Shown here: piece by piece, positions 6,360-28,936 of the stretch
Layout of the letters: the number at the start of each line of letters is the position of its first letter
Position numbering within the stretch: position 1 is the stretch's first letter
Assembly: GCA_903893745.1 (NCBI GenBank)
Contig: CAITNF010000012.1
Span: forward strand, 1-40,185
Length of the DNA: 40,185 nucleotides
Source of the DNA: an uncultured Actinomycetes bacterium
GTDB lineage: Bacteria > Actinomycetota > Acidimicrobiia > Acidimicrobiales > RAAP-2
Reading direction: 5' to 3'
Made by a program: the position numbers and the translations under genes
The notes under the pieces: generated by a model
Told to the model about the DNA's origin: nothing
The model's input: the letters and a program-made list of their open reading frames with translations, nothing else
The model's database searches: none

Positions 6360-6391
6360 GGAAGATTCCCCTTGGTAGATGTACTGCATTC

Positions 6392-6397
6392 ACTATA
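6392..6397 (-). promoter_or_regulatory. -10-like hexamer for livK
   Basis: TATAGT on the minus strand, about 33 nt before the chosen livK ATG at 6359. A strong Shine-Dalgarno AAGGGG lies between them, so this is a leadered promoter, unlike many others in the window. Confidence 0.45.
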
Positions 6398-6427
6398 AGT
6401 CCCGGAAAACCTTTTTGTCTGGTCGGG

Positions 6428-7483: not shown

Positions 7484-8376
7484 TAGACGCGCCTCGTCAC
7501 GGTTCGCGTAAAGATCCCCTGCGGCTTAATCGCGAGGCTGATGAGTAACACAATGACGCCCGCCAATGGAGCCAAGTTTGCCGACCAGTAGTTGAGGATG
7601 AACTGTTGGGCGAGCCCGATTAACAGTCCACCAATGACGGCGCCGAGTGGGGACTCGAGACCGCCCACCGCCGCCGCGATGAAGGCACTGACGAAAATAC
7701 CGTCAAGATTCGTCGCGTCCAGGGTGTGGCCAGTCGAGACGATCACGCCGGCCAACGCACCGATGCCGCTCGAGAGCATCCAGCCCAGGGTTAAGAGTCG
7801 GTTTACGCGTACGCCCAGCAGTCGCGAAACTTCGGGGGCGAGAGCGGCGGCGCGCATTTTTAGTCCGAGGGTCGTGTACTGAAAGAGCAAAGCGACGACC
7901 AACATGACGCCGAGGGCGAGGGCTATTTGATAGAGGACAAACGGCGAGAGAAGGACGGTGTTGCCGTGCGATTGAAAGTAGACCTGGCTGAACGGTGAGG
8001 GCACCGTGTTAAAACTGCTCGCCCAGATCGCGGGTACGAGAGCCTCGAGCAGTCCCAAGAACCCCACCATCACGACAATGGGATTTATCTCGGGTTTGCC
8101 GTACAGGGGACGGATGAGCACGCGTTCGGTGAGCCCGCCCACGACCAGTCCCGTCGCAACCGATAGCACTAGGCAGAGCCAGTAGTTCGTATCGTGAAAG
8201 ACCAGATTCATACCCACGAACGTGGCGAACATGCCCATCGCTCCTTGAGCAAAGTTCAATACGTTGGTTGACTTCCAGACAATGACGAGACACAGGGCGA
8301 CGAGCGCAATGACCGCGCCACTGGTGATCCCACCAAAGACGTCAGTCATAATTCGTGAAGTCAGCAGAGTGCTCAC
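7483..8376 (-). CDS. livH: Liv-type ABC transporter permease LivH
   Basis: A 297-residue inner-membrane permease. Motifs include TNVLNFAQGAMGMFATFV near residues 37-54, ERVLIRPLYGKPEINPIVV near 84-102, and GVIVSTGHTLDATN / AAVGGLESPLGAVIGGLLIG near 210-253, all typical of LivH. It starts with GTG at 8376, overlapping the livF stop as GTGA. With LivM it forms the channel energised by LivF and LivG. Spacing and overlaps show one transcription unit from livG to livM. Confidence 0.92.
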   Translation of the reverse strand: MSTLLTSRIMTDVFGGITSGAVIALVALCLVIVWKSTNVLNFAQGAMGMFATFVGMNLVFHDTNYWLCLVLSVATGLVVGGLTERVLIRPLYGKPEINPIVVMVGFLGLLEALVPAIWASSFNTVPSPFSQVYFQSHGNTVLLSPFVLYQIALALGVMLVVALLFQYTTLGLKMRAAALAPEVSRLLGVRVNRLLTLGWMLSSGIGALAGVIVSTGHTLDATNLDGIFVSAFIAAAVGGLESPLGAVIGGLLIGLAQQFILNYWSANLAPLAGVIVLLISLAIKPQGIFTRTVTRRV

Positions 8377-9083
8377 GGCGTGACCAGACCTAAGTAGTAG
8401 CGACGCAGGTCACTGTTGTCCGCAACTTCACTGGCACTGCCACTGGCGATGACCGTGCCCAGATGCAGTACCACGGCGTCGTGAGCAATGCGAAGGGCGC
8501 TCTTGGCGTTTTGTTCCACGAGTACGACGGTCAGGTTTTCTGACGCGCAGAGTTCGCTGATGGTCCGCATCATCTCGGCGGTGACTTGGGGTGCGAGCCC
8601 GAGTGATGGTTCATCGAGCAAGAGCACCGAGGGTTTCGCGATAAGTGCCCGAGCCATGGCGAGCATTTGACGCTCACCACCCGACAGCGTTGACGCGTAC
8701 TGCTTGCGTCGTTCGCCGAGCACGGGAAAGAGCGCGAACTGTCGCGCGAGTCCTTCGCTCACGTTGGCGCGACTTGCGAGTATGCCGAGTCGGAGATTTT
8801 CTTCAACGGTGAACTCCGCAATGACGCCACGTCCTTCGGGGACGTGACCAATACCGAGTCGAGCAATGTTTTCGGTGGCCAGGCCGAGTAGCGACGTCTC
8901 GTCGCAGAAGATCGCCCCGCTAGTTGGTTTCACGAGCCCCGAAATTGTGCGAAGCAACGTGGTTTTACCAGCACCGTTAGCGCCGAGCACTGCGGTAATA
9001 CGGCCCGCGGGTGCGCCAAAGGATACGTCGGTGAGTGCTCGCACCGCTCCGTAGACCACGCTCAAGCGTTCGACTCGAATCAC
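8373..9083 (-). CDS. livF: Liv-type ABC transporter ATPase LivF
   Basis: A 236-residue cytoplasmic ATPase with Walker A GANGAGKTT (about residues 34-42), signature LSGGERQMLAMARAL (about 134-148), Walker B VLLLDEPSLGLAP (about 153-165) and a switch histidine region LVEQNAKSAL. It starts with GTG at 9083, overlapping the livG stop as GTGA. It hydrolyses ATP to power ligand import through LivHM. All catalytic motifs are intact. Confidence 0.93.
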   Translation of the reverse strand: MIRVERLSVVYGAVRALTDVSFGAPAGRITAVLGANGAGKTTLLRTISGLVKPTSGAIFCDETSLLGLATENIARLGIGHVPEGRGVIAEFTVEENLRLGILASRANVSEGLARQFALFPVLGERRKQYASTLSGGERQMLAMARALIAKPSVLLLDEPSLGLAPQVTAEMMRTISELCASENLTVVLVEQNAKSALRIAHDAVVLHLGTVIASGSASEVADNSDLRRYYLGLVTP

Positions 9084-9859
9084 TGGTCAACTCCGAGGTA
9101 GGCGGCCAGGACTGCTTCGTCGTGACTGATCGAAGCGGGCGAGCCCGATGCGATGACTTGACCAAAATTAAGTACGACCAGCCGATCAACCAGTGGCATC
9201 ACGAAGTCCATGTTGTGCTCCACGAGCAAGACGCTCATCGTGGAGCGAAGTTCACCAATCAACTTAGAAAACTCCTCGAGCTCCTGCTCATCGAGCCCCG
9301 AAGCCGGTTCGTCGAGCAGCAAGAGCTTCGGCGCCATCATCAAGGCTCGAGCCATGGAGACTTTCTTCGCGATTCCGTAGGGGATGGCTCCGGGAAAGGC
9401 ATTGGCGTAGCGCGCAATTCCGAGTCGCTCCAGCATCGCCATTGCTTCGTGTCGCAGCCCTCGTTCGTGGCGAGCCGATGAGGCTAAACCTAAGAGACCC
9501 CTGGTGACCCCACCACCAGGTCGGCTCTGAGCGCCGGCCATGACGTTTTCAATTACTCGCACGTGATCAAAGAGACCAACGCCCTGCAGGGTGCGCGCGA
9601 CGCCGGCCCGAGCGAGTTGGTCGGGTCGGAGATTACTTTTTTCGAGCGCCGGGAAGTGCACCGACCCCGACGTGGGGGGAGTGAAGCCGCAGATGACGTT
9701 GAAGGCGGTGGTCTTGCCGGCCCCATTGGGCCCAATGAGACCGACAATCTCGTTCGCCGCCACTTGGAAGGAGATGTTGTGCAGTGCCAGTAGTCCACCA
9801 AAGCGAACCGAAACCTGGTCGACGTCGAGCGTCGCGAGGAGTTCGGGTGAAACAGTCAT
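9080..9859 (-). CDS. livG: Liv-type ABC transporter ATPase LivG
   Basis: A 259-residue ATPase with Walker A GPNGAGKTT, Walker B LLLLDEPASGLDEQE and the LVEHNMDFVM switch region. The ABC signature is unusual: it reads PYGIAKKVSMARAL where LivG proteins normally have LSYGQQRRLEIARAL. The ATG at 9859 matches the family N-terminus (TVSPELLATLDVDQVSVRF). Longer in-frame extensions run into the divergent DUF3048 gene region. A TAGTTT hexamer lies 7 nt before this ATG. It is the first gene of the livGFHM unit, which is an uncommon gene order. Confidence 0.9.
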   Translation of the reverse strand: MTVSPELLATLDVDQVSVRFGGLLALHNISFQVAANEIVGLIGPNGAGKTTAFNVICGFTPPTSGSVHFPALEKSNLRPDQLARAGVARTLQGVGLFDHVRVIENVMAGAQSRPGGGVTRGLLGLASSARHERGLRHEAMAMLERLGIARYANAFPGAIPYGIAKKVSMARALMMAPKLLLLDEPASGLDEQELEEFSKLIGELRSTMSVLLVEHNMDFVMPLVDRLVVLNFGQVIASGSPASISHDEAVLAAYLGVDQ

Positions 9860-9912
9860 AGTGGCAAAACTACTCCCCAACTTTAGGAAGCTTGGTCGCG
9901 GTCGGATTCGCC

Positions 9913-9918
9913 TAAGTT
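9913..9918 (+). promoter_or_regulatory. -10-like hexamer for the DUF3048 gene
   Basis: TAAGTT exactly 6 nt before the ATG at 9925. The 65-bp gap to livG on the other strand would hold two divergent leaderless promoters. Confidence 0.5.
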
Positions 9919-9924
9919 GCCAAG

Positions 9925-10956
9925 ATGCGAATACTCCAGACCTCAACCCTACTGGCGACACTTGGACTGTTCACGGTTGGCGTCGCTCCCGCGCTGGGAG
10001 ATTCGAGCACCACCACGACCGTTTCCACCACCACGAGCGCCCCGACGACCACGACGACCACGAAGCCGGTGCACGTGGCACCTCTGACCGGGCTGCCTGA
10101 TCCGAGCGGACTCACCAAACATCGACCGGCGTTGACCGTCAAGATTGATAACACGTTCGATGCTCGACCCCAGTACGGGATCAACAAGGCGGACATTGTC
10201 TACGAAGAGATCTGCGAAGGCGGGATTACGCGTCTCGCCGCAATTTTTAATTCTCGATTAAGTCTGCGAGTGGGTCCCGTGCGATCAGTTCGACGAACTG
10301 ATCGAGAAATTGTCTATCCCATCGGGGGCATCTTCGCGTTTTCTGGTGGAGCGCTCTACGCGTTGAAGAGCATTCGATCGGCTCCGGTGAAGTTGTTCGA
10401 TCAGTCTTCAGCCGGGGCCGCCATGTTTCGTGATCCGAAGCGCTACCCACCGCACAACCTGTACGCGAACGTCGCGGCGCTTATCAAGCGAGGGGGTCGG
10501 CCAACCCCACCACCGGCACTATTCACGTACACCCCCGTGACGGCGCCGCCGATTGGTGGTCGAGTGCATTCGTTCGTCGTTGGATTCGTGGCCGGTTACG
10601 CCACCACGTGGACGTGGAATGCGCGATCCCTGTCGTGGGATCGTTCAATCTTTGGGCGACCAGACGTGACCGCCGATGGCGCGCGCCTGTCCCCGAAAAA
10701 CGTTGTGGTGCTCTCGGTGCACTACCGCGGCGGAGTAGGCGTGGAGGGTGCTCAAGCGGTCTTGACCGGTTCTGGACCGGTTCGAGTCTTTACAAAAGGT
10801 CGAATGATTAACGGCAGTTGGTCGCGTGGAGCCAATCTGCGCAAACCAATTGTCGTGCGCAGCGCCGACGGTAAGGTCATCGCACTCACGCCGGGTTCTA
10901 CGTGGGTCGAGCTGCTCGACGTGAGTGAACACGTGACACTGACTTCCCTGCGCTGA
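9925..10956 (+). CDS. Secreted DUF3048 (YerB-like) protein
   Basis: A 343-residue exported protein. A signal peptide (about 1-25, ending near APALG) is followed by a Thr-rich spacer at 27-46 and then the DUF3048 domain: PLTGLPDP, RPALTVKIDN, GINKADIVYEE, ITRLAAIF, VGPVRSVRRTD. The C-terminal part carries LSPKNVVVL and a closing GSTWVELL, typical of YerB-like proteins. The domain is widespread in Gram-positive bacteria, but its biochemical role is not established; a cell-surface role is inferred. It is divergent from livG and followed by a 117-bp gap with a GACCCC..GGGGTC hairpin that lacks a T tract. Confidence 0.85.
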   Translation: MRILQTSTLLATLGLFTVGVAPALGDSSTTTTVSTTTSAPTTTTTTKPVHVAPLTGLPDPSGLTKHRPALTVKIDNTFDARPQYGINKADIVYEEICEGGITRLAAIFNSRLSLRVGPVRSVRRTDREIVYPIGGIFAFSGGALYALKSIRSAPVKLFDQSSAGAAMFRDPKRYPPHNLYANVAALIKRGGRPTPPPALFTYTPVTAPPIGGRVHSFVVGFVAGYATTWTWNARSLSWDRSIFGRPDVTADGARLSPKNVVVLSVHYRGGVGVEGAQAVLTGSGPVRVFTKGRMINGSWSRGANLRKPIVVRSADGKVIALTPGSTWVELLDVSEHVTLTSLR

Positions 10957-17754: not shown

Positions 17755-19092
17755 TTAGTGAACTGATCGAACGGCGTCGGCGAGCACGCTGAGTCCGTCG
17801 GCCAACTGCTCGTTGGTGATGACCAGTGGCGGTAGTAGTCGAATCACGTTGCCGCTGGTGCCACAGGCCAGCGCGATCACGCCGTGCTGGTTGCAGTAGT
17901 TCACGATGGCCTTGGCCGCCGCCGCGTTGGGCGTCGTGGTGCCGGGCTCAACCAGCTCCATGGCGATCATTGCGCCTCGGCCTCGAATGTCGCCAATCAT
18001 GGCCGTGTCACGTTGCAGATCGCGCAGTGCGGTCGTCACAATCTGACCAATTTCACGAGCCCGACCGAGGAGATCACGGTCGCGCATGGTCTTGATCGTG
18101 GCCAGTGCCGCGACGGCCGCGACGGGGTTGCCACCGTAGGTACCCCCGAGTCCGCCTTCGTGCACCGCGTTCATCAACTCCGCGCGTCCCGTTACTGCGG
18201 CTAAGGGCATTCCGCCGGCCAAACCCTTGGCGGTCGTCACCATGTCGGGGATGACCCCTTCGTGATCGACGGCGAACCAGTCACCAGTTCGACAGAAACC
18301 ACTTTGGATCTCGTCGGCAATAAAGACCACGCCGTTGTCGCTCGTCCACTTCGAGAGCGCGGGCAAGAATCCTTCGGCGGGCACGACGAAGCCACCCTCG
18401 CCCTGGATTGGCTCAATCAAGAGGGCGGCCACGTTGTGCGCGCCCACCGTGGTCTCAATTTCGCTAATGGCGCGTGCGGCGGCTTCGGCACCACTCAGTC
18501 CATCGCGGAAGGGGTAGCTCATAGCCACGCGGTAGATCTCCGGCGCAAAGGGGCCGAAGCGATCCTTGTAGGGCATGTTCTTCGCGGTCAGGGCCATGGT
18601 GAGGTTGGTACGACCGTGGTACGCGTGATCAAACACGATGACGGCCTGGCGACCAGTGGCGAGACGCGCCACCTTGACGGCGTTCTCTACGGCTTCGGCA
18701 CCGGAGTTAAAGAGCGCCGATGTCTTGGCGTGGGTGCCGGGGGTGAGTTTGGCGAGCTCTTCACAGACTTCGATGTAGCTCTCGTAGGGCGTCACCATGA
18801 AACAGGTGTGAGTGAAGGCCGCGACTTGGGCGCTGACGGCATTGATGACTTCGGGCACGGCGTGACCAATGGAGGTCACCGCGATGCCCGAGCCCAGGTC
18901 GAGGATCTGGTTGCCGTCGACGTCGAGCAAGATTGCCCCGTCGGCGCGCTCGATGTAAATCGGAAAGCCGTTGGTGAGACCCGCGCTCACGACGGCCTTG
19001 CGGCGTTCGTGCAGGGCACGAGACTTGGGTCCGGGTAGTTCCGTAACGACCTTGCGCTCAGTTCCGACAACCGGTTCGAGTGATGTAACCAT
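17755..19092 (-). CDS. gabT: 4-aminobutyrate--2-oxoglutarate transaminase
   Basis: A 445-residue class III PLP aminotransferase of the actinobacterial GabT type. Motifs: DLGSGIAVTSIGHAVP, FNSGAEAVENAVK (128-140), FDHAYHGRTNLTMALT, IEPIQGEGGF (226-235), IADEIQSGFCRTG with Asp260/Gln263, and the PLP lysine Lys289 in TTAKGLAGGMP. It converts GABA and 2-oxoglutarate to succinate semialdehyde and glutamate. A Shine-Dalgarno AGAGGAG precedes the ATG. Related aminotransferases with other omega-amino substrates cannot be fully excluded. Confidence 0.9.
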   Translation of the reverse strand: MVTSLEPVVGTERKVVTELPGPKSRALHERRKAVVSAGLTNGFPIYIERADGAILLDVDGNQILDLGSGIAVTSIGHAVPEVINAVSAQVAAFTHTCFMVTPYESYIEVCEELAKLTPGTHAKTSALFNSGAEAVENAVKVARLATGRQAVIVFDHAYHGRTNLTMALTAKNMPYKDRFGPFAPEIYRVAMSYPFRDGLSGAEAAARAISEIETTVGAHNVAALLIEPIQGEGGFVVPAEGFLPALSKWTSDNGVVFIADEIQSGFCRTGDWFAVDHEGVIPDMVTTAKGLAGGMPLAAVTGRAELMNAVHEGGLGGTYGGNPVAAVAALATIKTMRDRDLLGRAREIGQIVTTALRDLQRDTAMIGDIRGRGAMIAMELVEPGTTTPNAAAAKAIVNYCNQHGVIALACGTSGNVIRLLPPLVITNEQLADGLSVLADAVRSVH

Positions 19093-19291: not shown

Positions 19292-19384
19292 GTGGACGAG
19301 TCTACAACGGTCGAGCGATGGTCTCGAAGTCGCCGTCGCGTCGCGTCGCGTCGTACAGTTCGAAGGGGTAAAGGTGGGTCGAAC

Positions 19385-19846
19385 GTGACGAACACAACGA
19401 GTGATGAACACTTCATGGCGCTCGCGCTCGACGCGGCCCGCGTGGCGAGTTCGCACGATGACGTTCCCGTCGGCTGCGTACTCGTCGAGAATGGTGAGCT
19501 CCTCGCGGTAGGCGAGAATCGTCGCGAGATTGATGGTGACGCCACGGCCCACGCCGAAGTAGTCGCGTTGCGCAACGCGTCGGCGGCGCGCTCGGGGTGG
19601 CGACTCGATGGTGTCACGGCCTACGTCACGCTTGAACCTTGCGTCATGTGCGCGGGAGCTCTCTTGAATGCTCGCGTGGCTCGCGTGGTTATTGCGGCGA
19701 TGGACGAAAAGGCCGGGGCGGTGGGTTCGCGTTACAACCTGCTCCAGGACCCTCGTCTCTTACACGAAGCGACAATTACCTACGACGTGCTCGCGACGGA
19801 CTCGCAGCAACTTCTGCGCGAGTTCTTTCAACAACGTCGCGCGTAA
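19385..19846 (+). CDS. tadA: tRNA-specific adenosine deaminase
   Basis: A 153-residue zinc deaminase. The active-site HAE (His56-Glu58) and PCVMC (Cys86, Cys89) motifs are intact, with the TadA-type ending LLREFF. It deaminates A34 to inosine in tRNA-Arg(ACG), and such a tRNA lies at the left edge of this window. The GTG start at 19385 follows an AGGTGG-like site; a longer frame from 19292 would overlap tRNA-Ser. The stop codon is 1 nt from the stop of the convergent PhnZ-like gene. Confidence 0.92.
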   Translation: MTNTTSDEHFMALALDAARVASSHDDVPVGCVLVENGELLAVGENRREIDGDATAHAEVVALRNASAARSGWRLDGVTAYVTLEPCVMCAGALLNARVARVVIAAMDEKAGAVGSRYNLLQDPRLLHEATITYDVLATDSQQLLREFFQQRRA

Positions 19847-19847
19847 C

Positions 19848-20411
19848 TCAGCGCGGGGGCCGAGCGAGGTTGCGGACAAGTTGTTCGTAGTCACGAAGTG
19901 ATCCAAGGACGAACTCGGTCTGCTTTGCGGTGTCGTCCCACCCACGTAATGCCAACGCCGTAGCGAAACCGGGGTGCGCCTCAAAGCGTTCGCACTCGTC
20001 GTTTGTCAGTAGGCCCCCTTGGGCCCGCAACGTCGCGCGTGACGTGGGCGACAGTTGGTCAACGTACGCGGGTTCACGAGTACAGCGCCAGCGTTTCGCG
20101 GTGACGTGCAGCGCTACTGGCTGGGCGACGAGTGGCCCAAAGATTGGTGCCAGCACTCGGGCTCCGACCGCTTGGTGGTCGTCATCATCACGTTCGAAGT
20201 TAAAGTCCTCAGCGCCCTGAAGGTCCACGACGAAGTGTCCGACGTCGTGAAAGAGCGCTGCCGTAATCAGCTCGTCACTGGCGTGGTGGTGTCGCGCGAG
20301 CGCGGCGCACTGCAGAGCGTGCTCGAGTTGGCTGACGTCCTCGCCGTAACGTTCGTGGCCGCGTAATTCGTAGAGCTCAAAGAGTTCGTCAACTGAAGCT
20401 GGCGCACTCAC
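19848..20411 (-). CDS. phnZ: PhnZ-like HD-domain di-iron phosphonate oxygenase
   Basis: A 187-residue HD-domain protein matching PhnZ/TmpB rather than generic HD hydrolases. Probable iron ligands are His31, His55-Asp56 (FHDVGHF), His79, His102 and Asp160 (GWDD). GEDVSQLEHALQCA, HVTAKR, LSPTSRATLRAQGG and AKQTEF are further family blocks. Tyr22-Gly-Glu24 may correspond to the mobile Tyr/Glu pair of PhnZ, though spaced one residue closer as I recall it. PhnZ cleaves the C-P bond of 1-hydroxy-aminoethylphosphonates with O2, releasing phosphate. The GTG start overlaps the preceding dioxygenase stop as GTGA. The exact phosphonate is unknown. Confidence 0.82.
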   Translation of the reverse strand: MSAPASVDELFELYELRGHERYGEDVSQLEHALQCAALARHHHASDELITAALFHDVGHFVVDLQGAEDFNFERDDDDHQAVGARVLAPIFGPLVAQPVALHVTAKRWRCTREPAYVDQLSPTSRATLRAQGGLLTNDECERFEAHPGFATALALRGWDDTAKQTEFVLGSLRDYEQLVRNLARPPR

Positions 20412-21160
20412 GCCGGCCGTCCCTCGAAGTCACCAATCAGTGAGAGCCGAACCCGGTCGCTTGCCGCCGGGGCGTCAAAGGCCAGCCGTTTGGCCTCGTA
20501 GTAGGCGTCACGCAAGTCACCCTCGGACTGACCGTTGTAGGTCGGGTAGAGCGCTCGACGATCGCGCGTGGAATGGTTCGCACTGCTGCGATGGGGAGTG
20601 AGCGCGTGAAAGAAGAGTGTCTGGCCGGCGCGAAGTTCCGTTGGTTGCCAGTCCAGTGACGCGACGACGTCGGGGTGCAGACAGCCTCGTTCGTCTTGGG
20701 CCAACAACTCGTGGTGCCAGCCCGAAACGATGTCGAGACACCCGTTCTCCACGGTGGCGTCGTCAACGGCGACCATCACACTGAGGACCGAGTCGACGAA
20801 GGGGTACGCGGGTTTGTCCTGGTGAGGAGCGAACCCAGCTCCACCGACCAGTTTGTAGTTGATCTTTTCTTTATAGAGCAGCGCTGGTTCGCCGAGCAGT
20901 TCACTCGCTATGGCACTGATAGCCCCGTCGCAAAGCAGCGCGCGCAGCGCGTGAGAAAACGGCGTGAAGTTCTCCGTGCGTGCGAGCTTTCGCCCGAAGT
21001 CAGTCATTTCGTAGTGGTGAAGCCACTCGCCGTCATCACGCCACGACGCCACTGCGTCAACTTCGTGTTGCAGTTCGTCTACCTCGAGTTCGAGCAGATT
21101 ATCGAGCAAGAGCCAGCCGTGCTGGTCGTAGTGCGCCCGTTGATCAGTAGTGATCATCAC
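20408..21160 (-). CDS. phnY: PhnY/TmpA-like 2-oxoglutarate dioxygenase
   Basis: A 250-residue PhyH-superfamily Fe(II)/2-oxoglutarate oxygenase. The iron triad is His113, Asp115 (GFAPHQDKPAY) and His190 (LTPHRSSAN), with Arg201 following. LLYKEKINYKL, ENGCLDIVSGWHHE and PTYNGQSEGDLRDAYY resemble PhnY and TmpA. These enzymes hydroxylate the alpha carbon of 2-aminoethylphosphonate or its trimethyl form, giving the PhnZ substrate, and the PhnZ-like gene follows directly. The start is GTG 21160 (TAACAT lies 6 nt before it) or the adjacent ATG 21157. It lies 32 bp after heliorhodopsin on the same strand. Confidence 0.82.
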   Translation of the reverse strand: MMITTDQRAHYDQHGWLLLDNLLELEVDELQHEVDAVASWRDDGEWLHHYEMTDFGRKLARTENFTPFSHALRALLCDGAISAIASELLGEPALLYKEKINYKLVGGAGFAPHQDKPAYPFVDSVLSVMVAVDDATVENGCLDIVSGWHHELLAQDERGCLHPDVVASLDWQPTELRAGQTLFFHALTPHRSSANHSTRDRRALYPTYNGQSEGDLRDAYYEAKRLAFDAPAASDRVRLSLIGDFEGRPA

Positions 21161-21166
21161 GTCCCC

Positions 21167-21172
21167 ATGTTA
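21167..21172 (-). promoter_or_regulatory. -10-like hexamer for phnY
   Basis: TAACAT on the minus strand, 6 nt before the GTG at 21160 and inside the 32-bp heliorhodopsin-phnY gap. It could give phnYZ a separate leaderless start. Confidence 0.35.
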
Positions 21173-21192
21173 GGTGGGTCGTAGGTAGAACC

Positions 21193-21963
21193 TCAGTGGC
21201 CCGCGGCCTGCGTGGACGCGAGCGTGGAGGCAAAGATCTGCCAGGCCAGCAGTGACTTGGCCGCTATTGATAACACCAAATAAGTCTTCTCACCAACGAG
21301 GTAGTTGCGGAAGCGACCGACCTGGCGATACTGCAGGTACTGGACTAACGCAAAACAGTTAAAGAAGATAAACAGTGAGACGTAGATACCGTAGACAAAG
21401 CCCGGCGCGTGGTCGCGGGCCCCCGGGCCGACGAGGTAGACACCAATGGCCAGCCAGGGCAGCACGCCCGCCACGCATCCGAGCCAGAACGGCATGAGGC
21501 TGGCACCCGGCTCTTCGTAGCGTTCTTGCATCCAACCAAAACCAATCATTGACGCGTTGACGCCAATCAGCGCAATCAACGCCGCCACGTCCTCAATGCC
21601 GGTTAATTGGGCAATGGCCAGAATCATGAGCGATGACGAGAGTGAGTACTCCAGCCAGCGAAAGGGGTTCTGATTTTTTGCGAGTCCCGCTTCGTAGGTC
21701 GTCCGCATGGGTAGCGCCACGATGAAGTGGGCCAGAGCCGAGAGGATGAAGAAGGCGACAATGATCCCCGCCATCGGAATATTGAAGAAGTGCACCATTT
21801 GATGTTTGGTTGATGCTCCCGGCGGTCCGGCCATGAAGTTGGCGCTCACGGGCAGAGCAAATGAGTTGGCCAAGACGAGAATGACCAGAGCCGAAACTGC
21901 GTGCAGGGTGCCCGCGATCAAGTTGTAGCGGCGCAATGTAGTAAAGCCAGAAGAGTTGTCCAT
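21193..21963 (-). CDS. Heliorhodopsin
   Basis: A 256-residue seven-helix retinal protein of the heliorhodopsin family, which inserts with inverted orientation relative to type 1 rhodopsins. Blocks nearly the same as those I recall from the actinobacterial reference protein 48C12 are present: NFMAGPPGA, NPFRWLEYSLSSS with counter-ion Glu105, GVNASMIGFGW, PFWLGCVAGVLPW, PGFVYGIYVSLFIFFN, ALVQYLQY and AAKSLLAWQIF with Schiff-base Lys236. His21 and His79 are also kept. The role is probably light sensing rather than pumping. TACAGT lies 8 nt before the ATG. The gene is followed by phnY after 32 bp. No retinal synthesis gene is in the window. Confidence 0.96.
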   Translation of the reverse strand: MDNSSGFTTLRRYNLIAGTLHAVSALVILVLANSFALPVSANFMAGPPGASTKHQMVHFFNIPMAGIIVAFFILSALAHFIVALPMRTTYEAGLAKNQNPFRWLEYSLSSSLMILAIAQLTGIEDVAALIALIGVNASMIGFGWMQERYEEPGASLMPFWLGCVAGVLPWLAIGVYLVGPGARDHAPGFVYGIYVSLFIFFNCFALVQYLQYRQVGRFRNYLVGEKTYLVLSIAAKSLLAWQIFASTLASTQAAGH

Positions 21964-22051
21964 AGTCCTTTACTGTACTGTCGACCGCTCGGTTAATGAT
22001 GGTGGGTGCGCCAGTTGAATAACGTGACGAACCATCGCCAGACTGGTCCGG

Positions 22052-22693
22052 CTATTCAACAATCGGGGCGAGTACGCCCCTCAACGCGCGTCCGCGCAGG
22101 CGATGGCGACTGACCTGGATCAAGATGACCAGAGCGGAAGGGACCATCACCACCGACGGCAACGCCACGGGCGGTTGGTGAATTAACACGCCGTAGAGGG
22201 CCCACGCGAGTCCCGTAAGTGTGGCGAGAGCCCAGCTCACTACCGAGACACCCTCGAGATTGCTACTGCGAAGGGCCACCACCATCTGGGGAAGATACAT
22301 CGTGACCGCACTGACGTCCGAGAGCGTGGCGAGAATCCAGCGCCAGTGAGGCGAAAGGCCAGCCAGCGAGACGAGCAAGGTGATGATGGTGATGATCAGT
22401 GCGCCGACTACCGCGCGGCGCACGGCGTGTTGGCGACGAGCGGCGACGGCGACGACGATGCCCGCCACGATAAGAAAGGGAATGTTCGCGTAGATCTCCG
22501 CGGGAACGTGATAGATCAAACCGTAGCCAGTCCACAGCTCAGTGACGAAGGCCGAGAGAATCCAGGTATCAAGCGACACACCCTGCGCGCCGCTGGTGCG
22601 AAAACGCAGAGCCTGCGCCACGCACTGCAGAACCGAGAGGGTTGGTGCGATGAAACTAAGGGTGAGGACAAAGCCGGAAGTTGCGAGCAGCAC
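22052..22693 (-). CDS. PQ-loop / SWEET-like membrane protein
   Basis: A 213-residue protein with about seven hydrophobic segments arranged as two PQ-loop-like repeats. The second is clear: MYLPQMVVALRSSNLEGVS (about 132-150) followed by WALATLTGLAWALYGVL. The first, AQALRFRTSGAQGVSLDTWI, lacks the PQ dipeptide. Families with this fold include SWEET sugar transporters and other small-solute carriers; the substrate is unknown. The GTG start at 22693 has GAGGG before it and a TAGAAC hexamer 6 nt upstream. It lies 88 bp upstream of heliorhodopsin on the same strand and may be co-transcribed with it. Confidence 0.72.
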   Translation of the reverse strand: MLLATSGFVLTLSFIAPTLSVLQCVAQALRFRTSGAQGVSLDTWILSAFVTELWTGYGLIYHVPAEIYANIPFLIVAGIVVAVAARRQHAVRRAVVGALIITIITLLVSLAGLSPHWRWILATLSDVSAVTMYLPQMVVALRSSNLEGVSVVSWALATLTGLAWALYGVLIHQPPVALPSVVMVPSALVILIQVSRHRLRGRALRGVLAPIVE

Positions 22694-22975: not shown

Positions 22976-23063
22976 TGGCGGAGGAGGTGGGATTTGAACC
23001 CACGGTAGGTTGCCCTACACACGATTTCCAATCGTGCCGATTCGGCCGCTCTCGCACTCCTCC
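22976..23063 (-). tRNA. tRNA-Ser(GGA)
   Basis: A class II tRNA on the minus strand. The acceptor is GGAGGAG, the anticodon stem CACGA/TCGTG holds the loop TTGGAAA with anticodon GGA, there is a long variable arm, and the T arm contains GGTTCAAATCC. The discriminator is G and CCA is encoded. It shares its T arm and acceptor 3' strand with tRNA-Ser(CGA) at 19204. Confidence 0.95.
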
Positions 23064-23123
23064 TAGATTCCGACCTTTCTTTTTAAAAAGTGTCGGCTCG
23101 CAAGGCTACCGGAGACACCGAAT

Positions 23124-23146
23124 GGGTGGCGAAAAAGCCATCACCC
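23124..23146 (-). terminator. Weak hairpin downstream of the secreted-protein gene
   Basis: An imperfect stem (GGGTGATGGC with GCCACCC on the minus strand) around TTTTTC, about 110 bp after the stop codon at 23255 and before tRNA-Ser. It is a possible but weak terminator. Confidence 0.3.
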
Positions 23147-23254
23147 GCCGTCACGCGTCAAGGTTCGGTCCCACTTGATGAACAATGAATTAACCGAGTT
23201 GCGAGAGCAGGTTTGCCGAGGCGGCCCTGTTCAAACTCGTACGCGCGGTAGCAA

Positions 23255-23899
23255 CTACGAGATCGTGGTGGACGTTGCGGGAACAGTAGTGGTGGTTGGG
23301 GAGTCCTGGTGGAGACGCAAGGTAAAGGTGCCACTGATTGGTGAACCTACCGGACCGGTTCGAGTTCCCGTATACAAGCCAAAGCCGTGGGTGTTCGCGT
23401 ACGTTCCGGTTCCTCCGATGACGCGCAGCGGTGCCTTGAAGTTGTAGGCGCCACCGGATGAACGAGTGAGACCATTCATACTGACGCCCAAGGTGGAACT
23501 ATCCGAGAAGGTGAAGGTGACGAATCCATTGAAGTGGCCAACGCCATTGACGTAGACCAACCCACCGAGTAACTCGATGGCGGTCGGGGTCGCGAGACTG
23601 GTCGACGTGCCGGTCAGTTCGTTAAAACCGTACGTGGTCGCCGTACCAACACTGTGCAACGCGTTCCAGGGCGAGGTCAACGTCGCATTGAGCGTCATGG
23701 TAGGAGTCCACGACGAATGGTGGTGACTCGATTTACCGTCGTGTGAGGACTTTGCGTGTTTGGCGGTATCGGCCGCCGCGATGGTGGACCCTCCCACGAC
23801 TAACCCGAGGGCAATGGTCGTCGCCGCAATTCGTCGCACCGTCGAACTCAGTGCACGACCGTCTCGCGCGGTAGTTCGGTTCTCTCGTCCTAGCAACAT
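23255..23899 (-). CDS. Secreted beta-rich protein
   Basis: A 214-residue exported protein. A basic N-terminus and hydrophobic core (IAATTIALGLVVGGS) end near AAADTA. This is followed by a His/Ser/Lys-rich stretch, a beta-rich domain with LRVIGGTGTYANTHGFGLY near residues 158-176, and a Thr-rich tail. The GGTGxYAxxxG pattern recalls the barrel of allene oxide cyclase/dirigent-like proteins, but this is a loose match and no function is assigned. A near-ideal Shine-Dalgarno AAGGAG lies 6 nt before the ATG. It is divergent from the structured RNA and photolyase unit. Confidence 0.7.
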   Translation of the reverse strand: MLLGRENRTTARDGRALSSTVRRIAATTIALGLVVGGSTIAAADTAKHAKSSHDGKSSHHHSSWTPTMTLNATLTSPWNALHSVGTATTYGFNELTGTSTSLATPTAIELLGGLVYVNGVGHFNGFVTFTFSDSSTLGVSMNGLTRSSGGAYNFKAPLRVIGGTGTYANTHGFGLYTGTRTGPVGSPISGTFTLRLHQDSPTTTTVPATSTTIS

Positions 23900-23989
23900 G
23901 GAATTCTCCTTAAGGGTGAATTTTTCTCACCCCAAAGTAGCGGAGTTGGGGCTTGTTGGGTATTCAACCTTGTAATTGCTGGTAACTAC

Positions 23990-24119
23990 CGTTACCCGGT
24001 ATGAATAGGCAGGGCTCGATTCCGTACGTCGCAGTGCGCACGAGATCTCCTGGCGTGGGCAAATCCAAAGGGCCCCGGCGAAAGTCCGGGTGATGCACGA
24101 CACGCCCTTAGGGGTAACG
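23990..24119 (+). ncRNA. Putative structured leader RNA, possibly FMN-riboswitch-like
   Basis: The 317-bp gap between 23899 and 24217 holds a compact foldable element. An 8-bp closing stem pairs CGTTACCC (23990-23997) with GGGTAACG (24112-24119). Inside are CGTCGC-AGT-GCGCACG (one bulge), TGG-GCAAAT-CCA, and CCGGC-GAAA-GTCCGG with a GNRA loop. Several blocks resemble conserved parts of the FMN (RFN) riboswitch as I remember it: GGCAGGG..ATTCC, GGGCAAATCC, and GGCGAAAGTCCGGGTG for CGGUNAAAGUCCGGAUG. Several RFN-conserved bases differ, so the class is uncertain. It lies about 100 nt before the DUF2256-photolyase genes on the same strand. Confidence 0.38.
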
Positions 24120-24216
24120 AGTCGTTGCGGGGACTTCGAGATTTTGAGAAATCAACTTGATCAGGTAAAACGCTGCACTTGCATCACTTGGTGGTGGGGA
24201 CCGGTAGAAGGCAGGG

Positions 24217-24393
24217 GTGGGCAAACCGGCTCGAGTGGCCAAGATCAAGAACGGGCTCGGCCCAAAAAACTGCGAGGTCTGCGGTCTGGCCTTTGAGTGG
24301 CGAGCGAAGTGGCGCAACAACTTCGACGAAGTTCGCTACTGCTCGACCAGGTGCTCACGTGCTGCTCGGGTCAATCGTCGATCGACGTCATGA
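24217..24393 (+). CDS. DUF2256 zinc-knuckle protein (58 aa)
   Basis: A 58-residue GTG-initiated frame. It carries the DUF2256 pattern: KNCEVCGLAFEWRAKW (18-32), then DEVRYCSTRCSRAAR, giving a CxxC..CxxxC zinc knuckle at Cys19/Cys22 and Cys42/Cys46. This small domain is commonly found next to photolyase/cryptochrome genes, and here its TGA overlaps the photolyase ATG as ATGA. The role is unknown; a nucleic-acid-binding or chaperone-like partner is plausible. The start could be a few codons different, as only a weak AAGG lies upstream. Confidence 0.85.
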   Translation: MGKPARVAKIKNGLGPKNCEVCGLAFEWRAKWRNNFDEVRYCSTRCSRAARVNRRSTS

Positions 24394-25895
24394 CAACTTC
24401 GTTCTTCGTCCTTGGCGACCAACTTTCAGTCGACGTTGAACCCTGGCCGACGTTAGGGCTTGACACGGTCATTGTGATGATTGAGAGCGAATCGCTCATC
24501 TCCCAACCTCGCCATCTCACTCGAGTGGCGCTGTATCTGTCGGCCATGCGTAATTTTGCCGAAGCTCTCCGCGAAAAGAATTTCGTCGTTGACTACCGAC
24601 GCGCAGCCAACTTCACGCAAGGTTTAGCCGAGCATCAGGCGCAGTTCAGACCAACGCAGATCTTCATGAACGCGCCGAGAGGTCGCCACGCACGATCCTT
24701 GTTCTCGCGGCTGGGGGTGGAGTTGTTGCCCGACCCGTTCTTTTTGACCGATGTTGAATCAATCCGCTCACGAAGTAAGCAGCCGCGCACGATGGAGCAC
24801 TTTTACCGCCAACAACGCCAGCGGCTCAACGTGTTGATGGATGGAACTGAGCCGGTGGGGGGCCAGTGGAACTATGACGCAGAGAATAGAGAGCCCCTTC
24901 CTCGAGATGGTGGCGAATGGCCCGAGCCGTGGTCGGCGGCCCTCACCGCCGACGAAGTTGATCTCGTTGCGACATTGGAGCCAAGCCATCCGGGCGCCAA
25001 TGCGCTCTACTTTTGGCCGCGAACCAGAGTGCAGGCGATTGACCAGTTACGCGATGCGGTTACGCGGATTATTCCTCACTTCGGTCCCCATGAAGACGCA
25101 GCCAGCCTCGAAAACTGGCATCTCGCCCACTCTCGACTCAGCGCTGCGCTCAACCTGGGTCTGCTGCACCCGGCTGAAGTGATTGAAGCGGTATCCAGGC
25201 AATTCGCCCTAGGGGAGATTCCGTTAGCGAGCGCCGAGGGATTTCTTCGCCAGATCATCGGTTGGCGTGAATGGGTCTATGTGCTGCACCACTTACGGAC
25301 TCGCGAGTATTCGCAACTCAATCACCTTGGTGCGAACAATGAACTGCCCACTTCTTGGCAGCAGATGGGACACCATGAGATGCGCTGTCTCGATGGTGTA
25401 GTGCGCCACCTCAACGACTACTCCTGGACCCATCACATTGAGCGCCTTATGGTGCTGGCTAATGCGGCAACCCTCGCTGGCGTAAGTCCGCAGGCATTCA
25501 CGAAGTGGATGATTGGCGCATTCGTTGACGGTGCTGAGTGGGTAATGGAGGCCAACGTGATTGGCATGGGAACCTTTGCCGATGGCGGCGCGACCGGCAC
25601 CAAGCCCTATATCGCGGGTGGTAACTATCTCAACAAGATGACGAACTTCTGTAAAGGTTGCGCCTTTTCGCCAACAATTCGCACCGGAGAGACCGCCTGC
25701 CCGCTCACCACTTTGTATTGGGACTTTCTCATCCGCAATGAGGCACCACTGAGCCGAATCAATCGTATTGCCCCGCAACGAAAAGCGGCTCTCGCTCGAC
25801 CCGATCGAATGGAAATCAGTGCCCACGCGCCACACGCCACACGAATCATTCTGGGTGCCACGCGTGTGACGGTAGAAAGTTCGTCGCCAAGCTGA
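24390..25895 (+). CDS. FeS-type (6-4) photolyase / cryptochrome-like protein
   Basis: A 501-residue member of the bacterial FeS-BCP branch (PhrB-like, once called deoxyribodipyrimidine photolyase-related). Four cysteines at 333, 421, 424 and 437 (MRCLDG, NFCKGC, TACPL) match the 4Fe-4S ligands. HHIERLMVLANAATLAG and GAFVDGAEWVMEANVIGMG..FADGG form the FAD site. The N-terminal Rossmann part starts SFFVLGDQLS. It repairs (6-4) photoproducts using light, with FAD and probably a lumazine antenna. The start at 24390 overlaps the DUF2256 stop. The last codons run into a VapB-like relic that supplies the stop codon. Confidence 0.92.
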   Translation: MTTSFFVLGDQLSVDVEPWPTLGLDTVIVMIESESLISQPRHLTRVALYLSAMRNFAEALREKNFVVDYRRAANFTQGLAEHQAQFRPTQIFMNAPRGRHARSLFSRLGVELLPDPFFLTDVESIRSRSKQPRTMEHFYRQQRQRLNVLMDGTEPVGGQWNYDAENREPLPRDGGEWPEPWSAALTADEVDLVATLEPSHPGANALYFWPRTRVQAIDQLRDAVTRIIPHFGPHEDAASLENWHLAHSRLSAALNLGLLHPAEVIEAVSRQFALGEIPLASAEGFLRQIIGWREWVYVLHHLRTREYSQLNHLGANNELPTSWQQMGHHEMRCLDGVVRHLNDYSWTHHIERLMVLANAATLAGVSPQAFTKWMIGAFVDGAEWVMEANVIGMGTFADGGATGTKPYIAGGNYLNKMTNFCKGCAFSPTIRTGETACPLTTLYWDFLIRNEAPLSRINRIAPQRKAALARPDRMEISAHAPHATRIILGATRVTVESSSPS

Positions 25896-25962
25896 CCCAG
25901 GACTGCGAGCGCAATTGCATGTTTTGAGTGTCGGAATCTCTTCCGATTTGCTTGCGAAATAG
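25891..25962 (+). pseudogene. Relic of a VapB-type antitoxin C-terminus
   Basis: In frame from 25891 this encodes ADPGLRAQLHVLS..SDLLAK and a stop. The intact antitoxin at 26082 ends ADPGLRAELHVLSPDTTDDLPL. The first 21 bases (GCTGACCCAGG..GCGAGCG) are identical in both, followed by partial identity. No start or N-terminal part remains, so this is a leftover of a second antitoxin copy fused to the photolyase 3' end. Confidence 0.7.
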
Positions 25963-26069
25963 ATCTACAAGAGCCCCCAGACAGATAGATGGGGGACTGA
26001 CTTCGGTTCGCCAGGCTTAGGGCCCTTCTTCGATTGCGCTCGGGAGTTACTTTATTGTCGCATATGTGC

Positions 26070-26075
26070 TACAGT
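26070..26075 (+). promoter_or_regulatory. -10-like hexamer for vapBC
   Basis: TACAGT exactly 6 nt before the GTG at 26082. It supports GTG 26082 over the in-frame ATG at 26064, which would lie upstream of the predicted transcript. Confidence 0.5.
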
Positions 26076-26081
26076 TGTGCT

Positions 26082-26333
26082 GTGTCTGAAATTGCCTCTC
26101 GTGAACTGCGAAATAACACTCGGGGACTGCTGGCGAGGGTTGCTGGTGGCGAGGACGTCGTCATTACCGTGGACGGTCAGCCCGTCGCAGCATTGCGACC
26201 TTTGAACCTTCGCCCTCGCTGGATGAATGGAGCCGACTTTGCGCGACGGTTGGTTCATCACCAGGCTGACCCAGGACTGCGAGCGGAGTTGCACGTCTTG
26301 TCGCCGGACACGACCGACGACTTACCACTGTGA
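26082..26333 (+). CDS. Phd/YefM-like antitoxin
   Basis: An 83-residue antitoxin. The N-terminus SEIASRELRNNTRGLLARVAGGEDVVITVDGQPVAALRP is the Phd/YefM DNA-binding fold, and the C-terminal tail with RRLVHHQADPGLRAEL is the probable toxin-binding part. It would neutralise the adjacent PIN toxin and repress its own promoter. The toxin GTG overlaps this gene's TGA. I chose GTG 26082 because of the -10-like hexamer 6 nt upstream and the family N-terminus. Confidence 0.85.
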   Translation: MSEIASRELRNNTRGLLARVAGGEDVVITVDGQPVAALRPLNLRPRWMNGADFARRLVHHQADPGLRAELHVLSPDTTDDLPL

Positions 26334-26716
26334 CGCGAGGGCTGGCCGACACCTCGGTGTTCATCGCGCGCAAGTCTGATCGAGCGCTTCACACGTCACT
26401 CTTGCCAGATGAACTGGCGGTCTCGATTATCACCATCGGCGAGCTGCGCGCGGGCGTGCTGGCCGCTAACGACGTCACGACTCGTGACCAACGTTTAGCA
26501 ACACTGACGGCGGCTATGACACTCGATCCCATTGCAATTGATGACGACGTCGCAGCCCAGTGGGCGCGCTTACGAGTATTGCTGCGCGACTCCGGACAAC
26601 GAATGCCGGTCAATGACTCGTGGATTGCTGCGACCGCAATGGCACTTCATGTGCCAATCGTCACTCAAGACGACGACTACATCAAACTGGCGGAGCTGAC
26701 CGTAGTTCGCGTGTAA
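26330..26716 (+). CDS. vapC: PIN-domain toxin (VapC-like)
   Basis: A 128-residue PIN-domain ribonuclease. The acidic site is complete: Asp7 (LADTSVFIA), Glu38 (TIGELRAGV), Asp96 (VNDSWIAATA) and Asp114/115 (VTQDDDY). It probably cleaves RNA (often tRNA in this family) when free of antitoxin. The GTG start overlaps the antitoxin stop as GTGA. No mobile-element gene is seen nearby, but a relic of a second antitoxin precedes the pair. Confidence 0.9.
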   Translation: MTRGLADTSVFIARKSDRALHTSLLPDELAVSIITIGELRAGVLAANDVTTRDQRLATLTAAMTLDPIAIDDDVAAQWARLRVLLRDSGQRMPVNDSWIAATAMALHVPIVTQDDDYIKLAELTVVRV

Positions 26717-26795
26717 CCCTGAAGAGGCAAGGCGTCAAACCTTGGCATCGATACCGCTGCACTTCTGACAACATTTGCGTGGAGGTAGTGGGATC

Positions 26796-26996
26796 ATGTT
26801 CGAACCTCACGGGGACAAAAATGACTTTGATCGCATTCAATTGTCATGGTTCGTAAAACTGTGTGGGTACCAACACCGTGTTGCTTGGGCAGTGCGCGGA
26901 AAATCATTTCAGTACTCTTCGATTGTTGAGGATTTCGCGACTATGGCCCAGCACAAGATTTCCAATTGGCCCGATTCGCCGGTTCGCTCCTTCTAG
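26796..26996 (+). CDS. Hypothetical short ORF (66 aa)
   Basis: A 66-residue frame starting MFEPHGDKNDFDRIQL, with GGAGG about 11 nt before the ATG. It has no signal peptide, membrane segment or recognised motif. It lies in the 361-bp gap between vapC and the SRP RNA, which is more AT-rich than its surroundings. It may be a gene remnant or not coding. The rest of the gap shows only a short dispersed repeat at 27020-27038. Confidence 0.25.
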   Translation: MFEPHGDKNDFDRIQLSWFVKLCGYQHRVAWAVRGKSFQYSSIVEDFATMAQHKISNWPDSPVRSF

Positions 26997-27071
26997 GGCC
27001 CAATTCTTTTGAACAACGAAGTGTCGGCTCGCCAGGCTGCTTGCGGCCCCGGGCCCTCGTCACGGTAGCCT

Positions 27072-27077
27072 TACAAT
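27072..27077 (+). promoter_or_regulatory. -10-like hexamer for SRP RNA
   Basis: TACAAT, placed about 6 nt before the predicted 5' end of the SRP RNA stem. No convincing -35 box was identified. Confidence 0.5.
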
Positions 27078-27209
27078 GCCGAGGTTGAAAGCGGTGGTCG
27101 GGTCCCGTGCGACGACCGTTCGTGAATCGAGTCAGGGGTGGAAGCCAGCAGCTCTCAGCGAATCGTGTTGGGTGCCACGGATCGCCTGACCACTGCTTTG
27201 GACCCCGGC
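27078..27209 (+). ncRNA. ffs: Signal recognition particle RNA (4.5S-type)
   Basis: The conserved domain IV core is at about 27130-27158: GTCAGG, a GGAA tetraloop at 27140-27143 and AGCAGC. The terminal parts pair over about 20 bases (GGTTGAAAGCGGTGG.. with ..CCACTGCTTTGGACC) and GCCG/CGGC outside them, forming one long hairpin. It binds Ffh for co-translational membrane targeting. The ends are approximate. Location immediately before dnaX is a known actinobacterial arrangement. Confidence 0.88.
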
Positions 27210-27226
27210 ACCTCACAGTCCACCGG

Positions 27227-27232
27227 TAGCAT
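27227..27232 (+). promoter_or_regulatory. -10-like hexamer for dnaX
   Basis: TAGCAT exactly 6 nt before the dnaX ATG at 27239, consistent with a leaderless message. Confidence 0.5.
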
Positions 27233-27238
27233 CCGTGC

Positions 27239-28936
27239 ATGGCTCCTGTGAATTCGACCCCCACGTCACTCGATGGGGTGACGTCGCTCTACCGACGTTT
27301 TCGACCCGGTCGCTTCTGCGAACTCCGTGGTCAAGATCACATCGTGCGAGCCCTACAGGGGGCCGTGCGAAACGACCGCATCTCGCACGCCTATCTCTTC
27401 TCGGGGCCGCGCGGTACTGGCAAGACTACGACGGCGCGCATTCTCGCTAAGGCACTGAACTGCGAACAGCCCGTGGACGGTGACGCCTGTAACACCTGTG
27501 CGAGTTGCGTAGCGATCACCCGCGGTAGTTCGCTCGACGTCATTGAACTTGACGCCGCGTCGAACAACGGGGTCGACGATATTCGTGAGATAACGGCCGG
27601 GGCCTGGCACGGTACGCCCGGTCGCTGGAAGGTCTACATCTTTGACGAAGTGCACCAGCTCTCGAAGTCCGCGTCGGCGGCACTACTTAAGACCCTAGAA
27701 GAGCCACCCCAGCACGTCATCTTCGTTCTGGCCACCACTGATCCGCACAAAGTGCTGCCCACAATCCGATCTCGAACGCAGCACCTGGAGTTTCGACTAC
27801 TGGCGGGAGAGACGCTGAGCACGTTGTTGCACGACGTGCAAGGCGCGGCGGGACTCACCGCTGACGACGCCACGATTGACGCGGCCGTGCGACTCGGTCG
27901 TGGGTCCGCCCGCGACGCGCTCAGCGCGCTCGATCAGTTAATCGCGACCGGGGCGCTGAGTGAGACGCAACCTTCGTTTGACGGACTGTTTGGCGCGCTC
28001 AGCGACAACGACGCCGTCGCGGCCCTGCGCGCGCTCGCCGTGCTGAGTGGTGAAGGATGGGACCCCGAACAACTGTCGGAGAGTTTTGCAGCCGAACTTC
28101 GCCAAGCATTTCTTCTGCAAGTCGCCCCCGACGTGGCCGACGCCGTTGACGCCGATCGGGCCCGTCTGACGGACTGGGGTTCGCGCCTAGGTTTGGCGCG
28201 AACTGTGCGGGCCCTCGAGACCATTGGGCGAACAATGCGAGAGATGAAGAGTGCCCCCGAGAAGATTGTGTTGCTCGAAGTTGCCCTCGTGCGCCTGGTG
28301 ACGCCCGATCTGGACTCGACCTATCAAGCGCTCGACGAGCGACTCACTCGATTAGAACATTCGTCCCAGTCGGCGCCACCCCCACCACCCCCGCCACCAA
28401 AACTGCAGCCAGTGGGCGCTAGTGCGAAGCAGTCGCCACCAGCCAGCGATCCACTCCCGACGCCGGAAGTGACCGAAGCCACGCCCGTTTCGGACCATGC
28501 CCCCTCAACCCCGGTGGGCAGTATCACCATTGACGACCTGCGCACTCGTTTCAACGAACACGTCGTCGGGCGCACGCCACGTTCGGCTCAAATGGTGTTA
28601 AAGCACTCGCGCGTGTTGCAGTTGGACCGAAATCGGCTCACGATTGCGGTGCCGAGTGAAGCGATGCGCCAATCGGCGAGTAGCGCGACACCGAGTCTGA
28701 TTGCGGCCCTGGAACACGAGTTCAAGGTGAAAATGCAAGTGGAGTGGACGGTGGACGGTTCACTCGACGTAGTCACCGAGCCACCGGCCGCTCGACCGGT
28801 CCGGGCCCCACGAACGACCACCGTCGGGAGCGACGTTGAACCGGCGGCGGCGAGTGACGACACCGTGCTCGTCGTCGACTCGGTGGCGAATCATTTGATC
28901 AATGAGATGTTCCCCGGGGCCGAAGAGGTCTCGTGA
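27239..28936 (+). CDS. dnaX: DNA polymerase III subunit gamma/tau
   Basis: A 565-residue clamp-loader ATPase. Walker A GPRGTGKTT is at residues 56-64, the zinc module uses Cys75, Cys84, Cys87 and Cys90, Walker B contains FDEVHQLS, the sensor/SRC region is TIRSRTQHLEF, and RGSARDALSALDQ follows. A Pro-rich linker (about residues 380-390) joins a C-terminal region of lower conservation ending NHLINEMFPGAEE. It loads the sliding clamp at replication forks. No A-rich slippery heptamer suggesting a frameshifted gamma form was noticed. The stop overlaps the recR GTG as GTGA. Confidence 0.96.
   Translation: MAPVNSTPTSLDGVTSLYRRFRPGRFCELRGQDHIVRALQGAVRNDRISHAYLFSGPRGTGKTTTARILAKALNCEQPVDGDACNTCASCVAITRGSSLDVIELDAASNNGVDDIREITAGAWHGTPGRWKVYIFDEVHQLSKSASAALLKTLEEPPQHVIFVLATTDPHKVLPTIRSRTQHLEFRLLAGETLSTLLHDVQGAAGLTADDATIDAAVRLGRGSARDALSALDQLIATGALSETQPSFDGLFGALSDNDAVAALRALAVLSGEGWDPEQLSESFAAELRQAFLLQVAPDVADAVDADRARLTDWGSRLGLARTVRALETIGRTMREMKSAPEKIVLLEVALVRLVTPDLDSTYQALDERLTRLEHSSQSAPPPPPPPPKLQPVGASAKQSPPASDPLPTPEVTEATPVSDHAPSTPVGSITIDDLRTRFNEHVVGRTPRSAQMVLKHSRVLQLDRNRLTIAVPSEAMRQSASSATPSLIAALEHEFKVKMQVEWTVDGSLDVVTEPPAARPVRAPRTTTVGSDVEPAAASDDTVLVVDSVANHLINEMFPGAEEVS

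Follow-up and report, generated by a model that had tools for sequence, protein, structure and literature searches.

The locus considered here raises the question of whether a heliorhodopsin gene (HeR) located 32 bp upstream of a PhnY/PhnZ-like gene pair, in the same direction, is functionally linked to phosphonate degradation or adjoins it by happenstance. The window, a stretch of 40,185 nucleotides, comes from a 1.66 Mb assembly that belongs to a genus with 99 genomes. Heliorhodopsin functions are often inferred from gene neighbors, and the locus in the window illustrates how such inference can mislead. With a probability of roughly 80%, the comparisons described below are best compatible with phnYZ being a self-contained unit with its own leaderless promoter, and HeR being separately initiated cargo of a variable chromosomal slot upstream of it. 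This suggests that the arrangement is mostly ordinary. The three genes and the gap between the first two are as follows.

21193–21963, minus strand: HeR, heliorhodopsin gene, 256 aa (PF18761, NF038020, structure 6su3)
21161–21192, minus strand: HeR–phnY intergenic gap, 32 bp
20408–21160, minus strand: phnY, PhyH-type Fe(II)/2-oxoglutarate phosphonate hydroxylase-like, 250 aa (PF05721; NF052437 below cut-off)
19848–20411, minus strand: phnZ, HD-domain di-iron oxygenase-like, 187 aa (TIGR03276 and NF052439 below cut-off; PhnZ and TmpB structures)

The coordinates, the strand, the 32-bp gap and the 4-base overlap of phnY and phnZ, as given in the preliminary description of this DNA, were all confirmed in the sequence.

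Identity of the three genes

The HeR protein passes the family models PF18761 (314 bits, cut-off 26.7) and NF038020 (299.9 bits, cut-off 100), and is matched by the 48C12 structure (6su3) with an E-value of 1.7e-80. Its residues K236, E105, H21 and H79 align with the key residues of 48C12, which we take to be the Schiff-base lysine, the counter-ion glutamate and two pocket histidines, respectively, so that both the retinal lysine and the glutamate counter-ion are present. Like the bacterial heliorhodopsins of the 48C12 group, the protein is full-length with the key residues kept; unlike them, it adjoins phnYZ, a context outside the ten published neighbor groups (PMC11109279). Against HeRs of its own genus and of Acidimicrobiaceae records, identity reaches 77%, and, among the best 80 of 146 relatives, many records that have a related HeR bear the label Acidimicrobiaceae or uncultured actinobacterium.

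The window genome (G000) also encodes a type-1 rhodopsin (L189:7859-8623 on G000:C1, minus strand; PF01036, 145 bits), the only PF01036 match over the cut-off among the 99 genomes of the genus. At a distance of about 1.4 kb from the rhodopsin gene, there is a gene of the integrase/transposase type (PF00665). The retinal-making BCD family PF15461 had no match in the 99 genomes, in a search in which the control likewise matched nowhere.

The phnY product belongs to the PhyH family (PF05721), and its residues H113, D115 and H190 align with the HxD motif and the distal histidine of PHYHD1, which makes the HxD...H pattern complete. The best NCBIfam model is that of the Gimesia-type methylphosphonate hydroxylase, NF052437, with 241.7 bits (below the cut-off of 500). 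The phnZ product contains an HD domain (PF01966) and scores below the cut-offs of both TIGR03276, "phosphonate degradation HD-domain oxygenase" (197.3 bits, cut-off 214.6), a model passed in none of the 99 genomes of the genus, and NF052439 (172.9 bits, cut-off 300). Its solved relatives are PhnZ (4mlm) and TmpB (6npa), with E-values of about 1e-25, and its residues H31, H55, D56, H79, H102 and D159 align with what we take to be the iron ligands of PhnZ.

At the family level, therefore, the models and the aligned residues bear out the identification as a heliorhodopsin and a PhnY/PhnZ-like pair; given that the curated equivalog cut-offs are missed, the genes are called PhnY/PhnZ-like here and no substrate is assigned. 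The original designation of the hydroxylase as "PhnY/TmpA-like" holds in its first half, the protein being PhnY-like (PhyH), but is too loose in its second, because TmpA belongs to PF02668, the TauD/gamma-butyrobetaine-hydroxylase family; the phnY product belongs to PF05721, and NF049936 is not among its matches up to an E-value of 0.01. In relation to the TmpA/TmpB pathway of trimethylaminoethylphosphonate degradation, the pair is thus similar with respect to the TmpB-like oxygenase but different in having a PhyH hydroxylase and not a TauD/BBOX-type TmpA. In relation to the PhnY/PhnZ pathway, which acts on 2-aminoethylphosphonate (2-AEP) or, in Gimesia maris, on methylphosphonate, the pair shares the adjacent and overlapping genes for PhyH and HD di-iron proteins with the metal-binding residues present, but scores below the TIGR03276, NF052437 and NF052439 cut-offs.

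A PhnZ match adjoins PhnY at 85 of the 86 loci with a PhnY match (the exception is L306). This count takes in redundant copies as well as the three from the window itself, and in L130 and L134 the PhnY match is a fragment. PhnY–PhnZ is a conserved unit. By extrapolation from the chemistry of the known PhnY/PhnZ pair (PMC10574752), PhnY would use Fe(II) and 2-oxoglutarate to hydroxylate the carbon adjoining the phosphorus of a small phosphonate, with methylphosphonate or an aminoethylphosphonate as candidate substrates, and the mixed-valent di-iron enzyme PhnZ would then split the C–P bond with O2, yielding phosphate and a carboxylate.

With regard to uptake, the family PF12974 had no match in the window genome (the control matched in 12 of 14), and neither did the PhnS-like binding protein of the relative G018, in a search run without a positive control. 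The ABC transporter genes at 4983-9961 were considered as a phosphonate uptake system beside the pair and rejected, being of the branched-chain amino acid type. In one genome bin (G032, 65% complete), phnYZ is present twice, on different contigs (L167 and L168).

Conservation of the gene neighborhood

Conservation of the HeR–phnYZ neighborhood in related genomes had been set beforehand as a test of the proposed operon. It was sought in the 99 genomes of the genus, in an order sample of 397 genomes and among the best 80 of 146 relatives found on genome contigs; phnY was additionally searched in the 172 genomes of the family. Within the genus, HeR is present in 25 of the 99 genomes, and a close phnY in 15, at 16 places. 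None of the 106 other loci searched, with the relatives limited to the best 80 of 146, has HeR beside phnY or phnZ, and the wider searches detected neither gene on the fetched DNA of any of the 120 other unique HeR genes, 109 of which have at least 800 bp of DNA downstream and 97 have that much on both sides. In the order sample, HeR is over the cut-off in 116 genomes, phnY in 56 and both in 33, and the window genome is the only one of these 33 in which the two are adjacent. Among the other 32, HeR and phnY lie on different contigs in 28, where the distance is undefined, and on one contig in four (G173, G271, G295 and G302), the closest being 38 kb apart (G271).

Conversely, phnYZ stands without a neighboring HeR in every other genome in which it was found. 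In G035, the genes gabT, tRNA-Ser, tadA, phnZ and phnY follow one another in the window order, with no HeR. In G034, where HeR is directly beside dnaX, its 1.2 kb of upstream DNA contains no phnY. The position immediately before phnY is taken in G018 not by HeR but by a gene (L155:7302-8948) in which a PhnZ-like HD domain is fused ahead of a TmpA domain, the latter with 419.5 bits, over the curated cut-off of 400. Open frames of 551–601 aa surround PhnZ matches in G005, G022 and G025, suggesting that a fusion may recur in the genus.

Putative promoters of phnY and HeR

Two candidate −10 boxes precede the starts of phnY and HeR.

21167–21172, minus strand: TAACAT, candidate −10 box exactly 6 nt ahead of the phnY GTG at 21160, in leaderless arrangement
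21972–21977, minus strand: TACAGT, candidate −10 box 8 nt ahead of the HeR ATG

The motif TANNNT precedes the phnY start at all 16 loci of the genus, including the window, with a spacing of 6 (7 in one case), and the genes upstream of these loci differ. Up to the level of the order, the motif is found at 6–7 nt in 36 of 52 unique phnY loci (spacing 6 in 31, spacing 7 in five) and at any other single spacing in at most five of the 52, a count in which every in-frame start close to the expected position qualifies, so that chance hits are raised. The 16 loci without the motif comprise 15 genes with at most 60% identity and one fragment; all 22 assessable phnY genes with at least 61% identity, the window included, have it at 6–7 nt. 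Of the HeR genes of the genus, 13 of 24 (again with the window among them) have TANNNT 5–9 nt before a start.

As a yardstick, about 407 kb of the window genome, the window included, was scanned, with genes called by a simple longest-ORF rule, as in the other scripted scans, and spacing counted from the first possible start. TANNNT at spacing 6 occurs in 24 of 98 genes whose upstream neighbor is on the opposite strand, such that the gene needs a promoter of its own, versus none of 85 genes overlapping or abutting a same-strand neighbor. According to PMC3160421, this signal, some 12 bp ahead of the start, characterizes leaderless genes, which are frequent in Actinobacteria and can only stand first in a message. 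Taken together, the phnY box and the similar HeR box speak for two separate starts, suggesting that phnY begins its own message and that HeR and phnY are initiated independently. The preliminary description had noted that the hexamer left room for separate transcription of phnYZ; it turns out to be the key feature of the gap. Thus, a 32-bp same-strand gap resembles an operon, but in a lineage rich in leaderless genes the hexamer and the comparison with relatives suggest a separate start.

No terminator-like site was found in the 32-bp gap, so that some read-through from HeR is possible and may add to the phnYZ message. In addition, GGGG is present 5 nt before an alternative phnY ATG at 21157, which makes possible a Shine–Dalgarno-led phnY start on a longer message.

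Ahead of the −10 box, several phnY promoters contain GTTC..CC-like stretches that are reminiscent of a phosphate-control box. A loose pattern of this kind is present in 7 of 21 phnY promoters versus none of 35 other leaderless-type promoters of the window genome; the pattern was chosen after the sequences had been seen, and a phosphate-control box, being too post hoc, is not claimed.

Variable cargo between two tRNA-Ser genes

The three genes lie between two tRNA-Ser genes, in the following surroundings.

17755–19092, minus strand: gabT (4-aminobutyrate transaminase), a flank that recurs; over the cut-offs of NF004714 and TIGR00700
19204–19291, minus strand: tRNA-Ser(CGA), left slot border; 39 genomes have both border tRNAs in the fetched DNA
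19292–19846, plus strand: tadA (NF008113, 148.1 bits, just under the cut-off of 150)
22052–22693, minus strand: SemiSWEET/PQ-loop-like membrane protein (all scores below cut-off)
22976–23063, minus strand: tRNA-Ser(GGA), right slot border; precedes dnaX at 82 of 94 loci, the window among them
24297–25895: DPRP, photolyase-related gene
27239–28936, plus strand: dnaX, conserved flank, followed by recR

In relatives, the stretch upstream of dnaX–recR usually reads tRNA-Ser(GGA), then, after a variable interval, tadA, tRNA-Ser(CGA) and gabT. In the 39 genomes with both tRNAs on the fetched stretch, the slot between them measures 503–15,234 bp and contains a TadA match in 35, PhnZ-type genes in nine, phnY in two and HeR in one, namely the window. 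Eight of the nine slots with PhnZ also match two G018 proteins, its ABC ATPase and its binding protein; the former is similar to PhnT2 (392.8 bits, cut-off 457.7), the latter weakly to PhnS (51.7 of 395.3). Relatives of the SemiSWEET/PQ-loop-like protein are also found upstream of dnaX in G023 and G027. The slot is similar to flexible genomic islands in that its borders, the two tRNA-Ser genes, recur and its cargo varies, but differs from them in its small size (0.5–15 kb) and in the presence of tadA inside. The comparison thereby maps a place in the chromosome that recurs among relatives and, in several of them, contains genes for phosphonate use.

Given the variability of the slot and the layouts of G018, G035 and G034, HeR looks like recent cargo in a place where phosphonate genes recur: it would have entered the slot between tRNA-Ser(CGA)–tadA and tRNA-Ser(GGA)–dnaX–recR and would lie upstream of phnYZ, in the same direction, by happenstance, although this order of arrival is deduced from present-day layouts. 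In the HeR tree, the window protein falls beside that of G034 with an SH-aLRT of 71, whereas in the DnaX tree, in which several long branches including that of the window are flagged, the two species are far apart; because the SH-aLRT value is just 71, a transfer of HeR between the window genome and G034 at this slot is put forward only as a suggestion. A phosphonate role was considered for gabT and rejected, given that its product passes the GABA-transaminase cut-offs and reaches just 235.5 of 525 bits with the PbfA model NF049939.

Alternative explanations

An alternative that extends the apparent operon and the light-linked control of the preliminary description is that HeR, phnY and phnZ constitute a working operon in which light, via HeR, controls phosphonate use, be it by co-expression or by binding of HeR to the enzymes. 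The common strand, the 32-bp gap and the missing terminator fit this proposal, as do published cases of HeRs that bind the products of operon neighbors, with glutamine synthetase, photolyase and an ABC transporter as partners (PMC9529153, PMC9769723 and PMC11109279). Against it, the adjacency is confined to the window genome among the genomes searched, phnYZ does without an adjoining HeR everywhere else it was found, phnY has a promoter motif of its own, and the ten published neighbor groups (PMC11109279) include no dioxygenase or phosphonate gene. The comparisons run gave no indication that HeR regulates or binds PhnYZ. In Actinomarinales, according to PMC7771536, HeR is located between two nuo clusters and phosphonate-degrading genes were not found. 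The operon finds no counterpart in any relative searched, light-linked control is left unsupported, and the proposal as a whole is very improbable. Hardly to be expected, too, is a coupling of HeR with phosphonate use across the order that light-dependent read-through on top of the phnY promoter makes physical at this locus.

Two further explanations are compatible with phnYZ as a self-contained unit and HeR as slot cargo. In one, HeR and the photolyase-related DPRP gene arrived together around tRNA-Ser(GGA), and phnYZ is a bystander. Between this tRNA and dnaX (23064-27238), the window contains genes for a 214-aa protein without a Pfam match, for DPRP and for a PIN protein (over cut-off), the last standing behind a Phd/YefM-like gene (below cut-off). 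The resulting gap of 4,176 bp is out of line with the relatives that have the tRNA, 78 of 81 of which stay at or below 400 bp, so that the DPRP region looks inserted; moreover, HeR lies no more than 270 bp from the end of a DPRP match in L084 and L095, and HeR–photolyase operons have been published, albeit with a class 2 CPD photolyase (PMC9769723). However, HeR and DPRP differ in strand and are separated by two genes and the tRNA, and DPRP matches occur on only two of 106 other HeR loci, which makes a joint arrival rather unlikely. In the other explanation, which is tentative but deserves more weight, HeR and oxidative phosphonate use are unlinked marks of the same sunlit, phosphorus-poor lifestyle. 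In the genus, HeR is present in 10 of 15 genomes with phnY versus 15 of 84 others (Fisher test, 2.7e-4), or in 6 of 10 versus 8 of 49 when only high-quality genomes are counted (0.008), and in the order sample, which overlaps the genus set, in 33 of 56 versus 83 of 341 (5e-7). The Fisher test ignores relatedness, however, and among independent pairs from the DnaX tree that differ in phnY (n=7), HeR differs in the same direction in about 2.7 pairs and in the opposite one in 0.4, and among those that differ in HeR (n=9), phnY does so in about 2.5 and 0.0, with a median p of 0.5 in both cases; the pairs lean toward co-occurrence but are too few. A shared habitat is the simplest reading of the co-occurrence and a candidate account of it, and the notion that HeR and phosphonate use go together per whole genome is a testable, if modest, lead.

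A different neighbor of HeR was observed in four other genomes, G097, G032, G098 and G091 (L172, L173, L174 and L180, respectively), where a gene of one and the same cluster closely follows HeR on the same strand. The member in L174 is an SDR/NmrA-DUF2867 protein, and fits the "SDR" group that is among the published HeR neighbor groups (PMC11109279).
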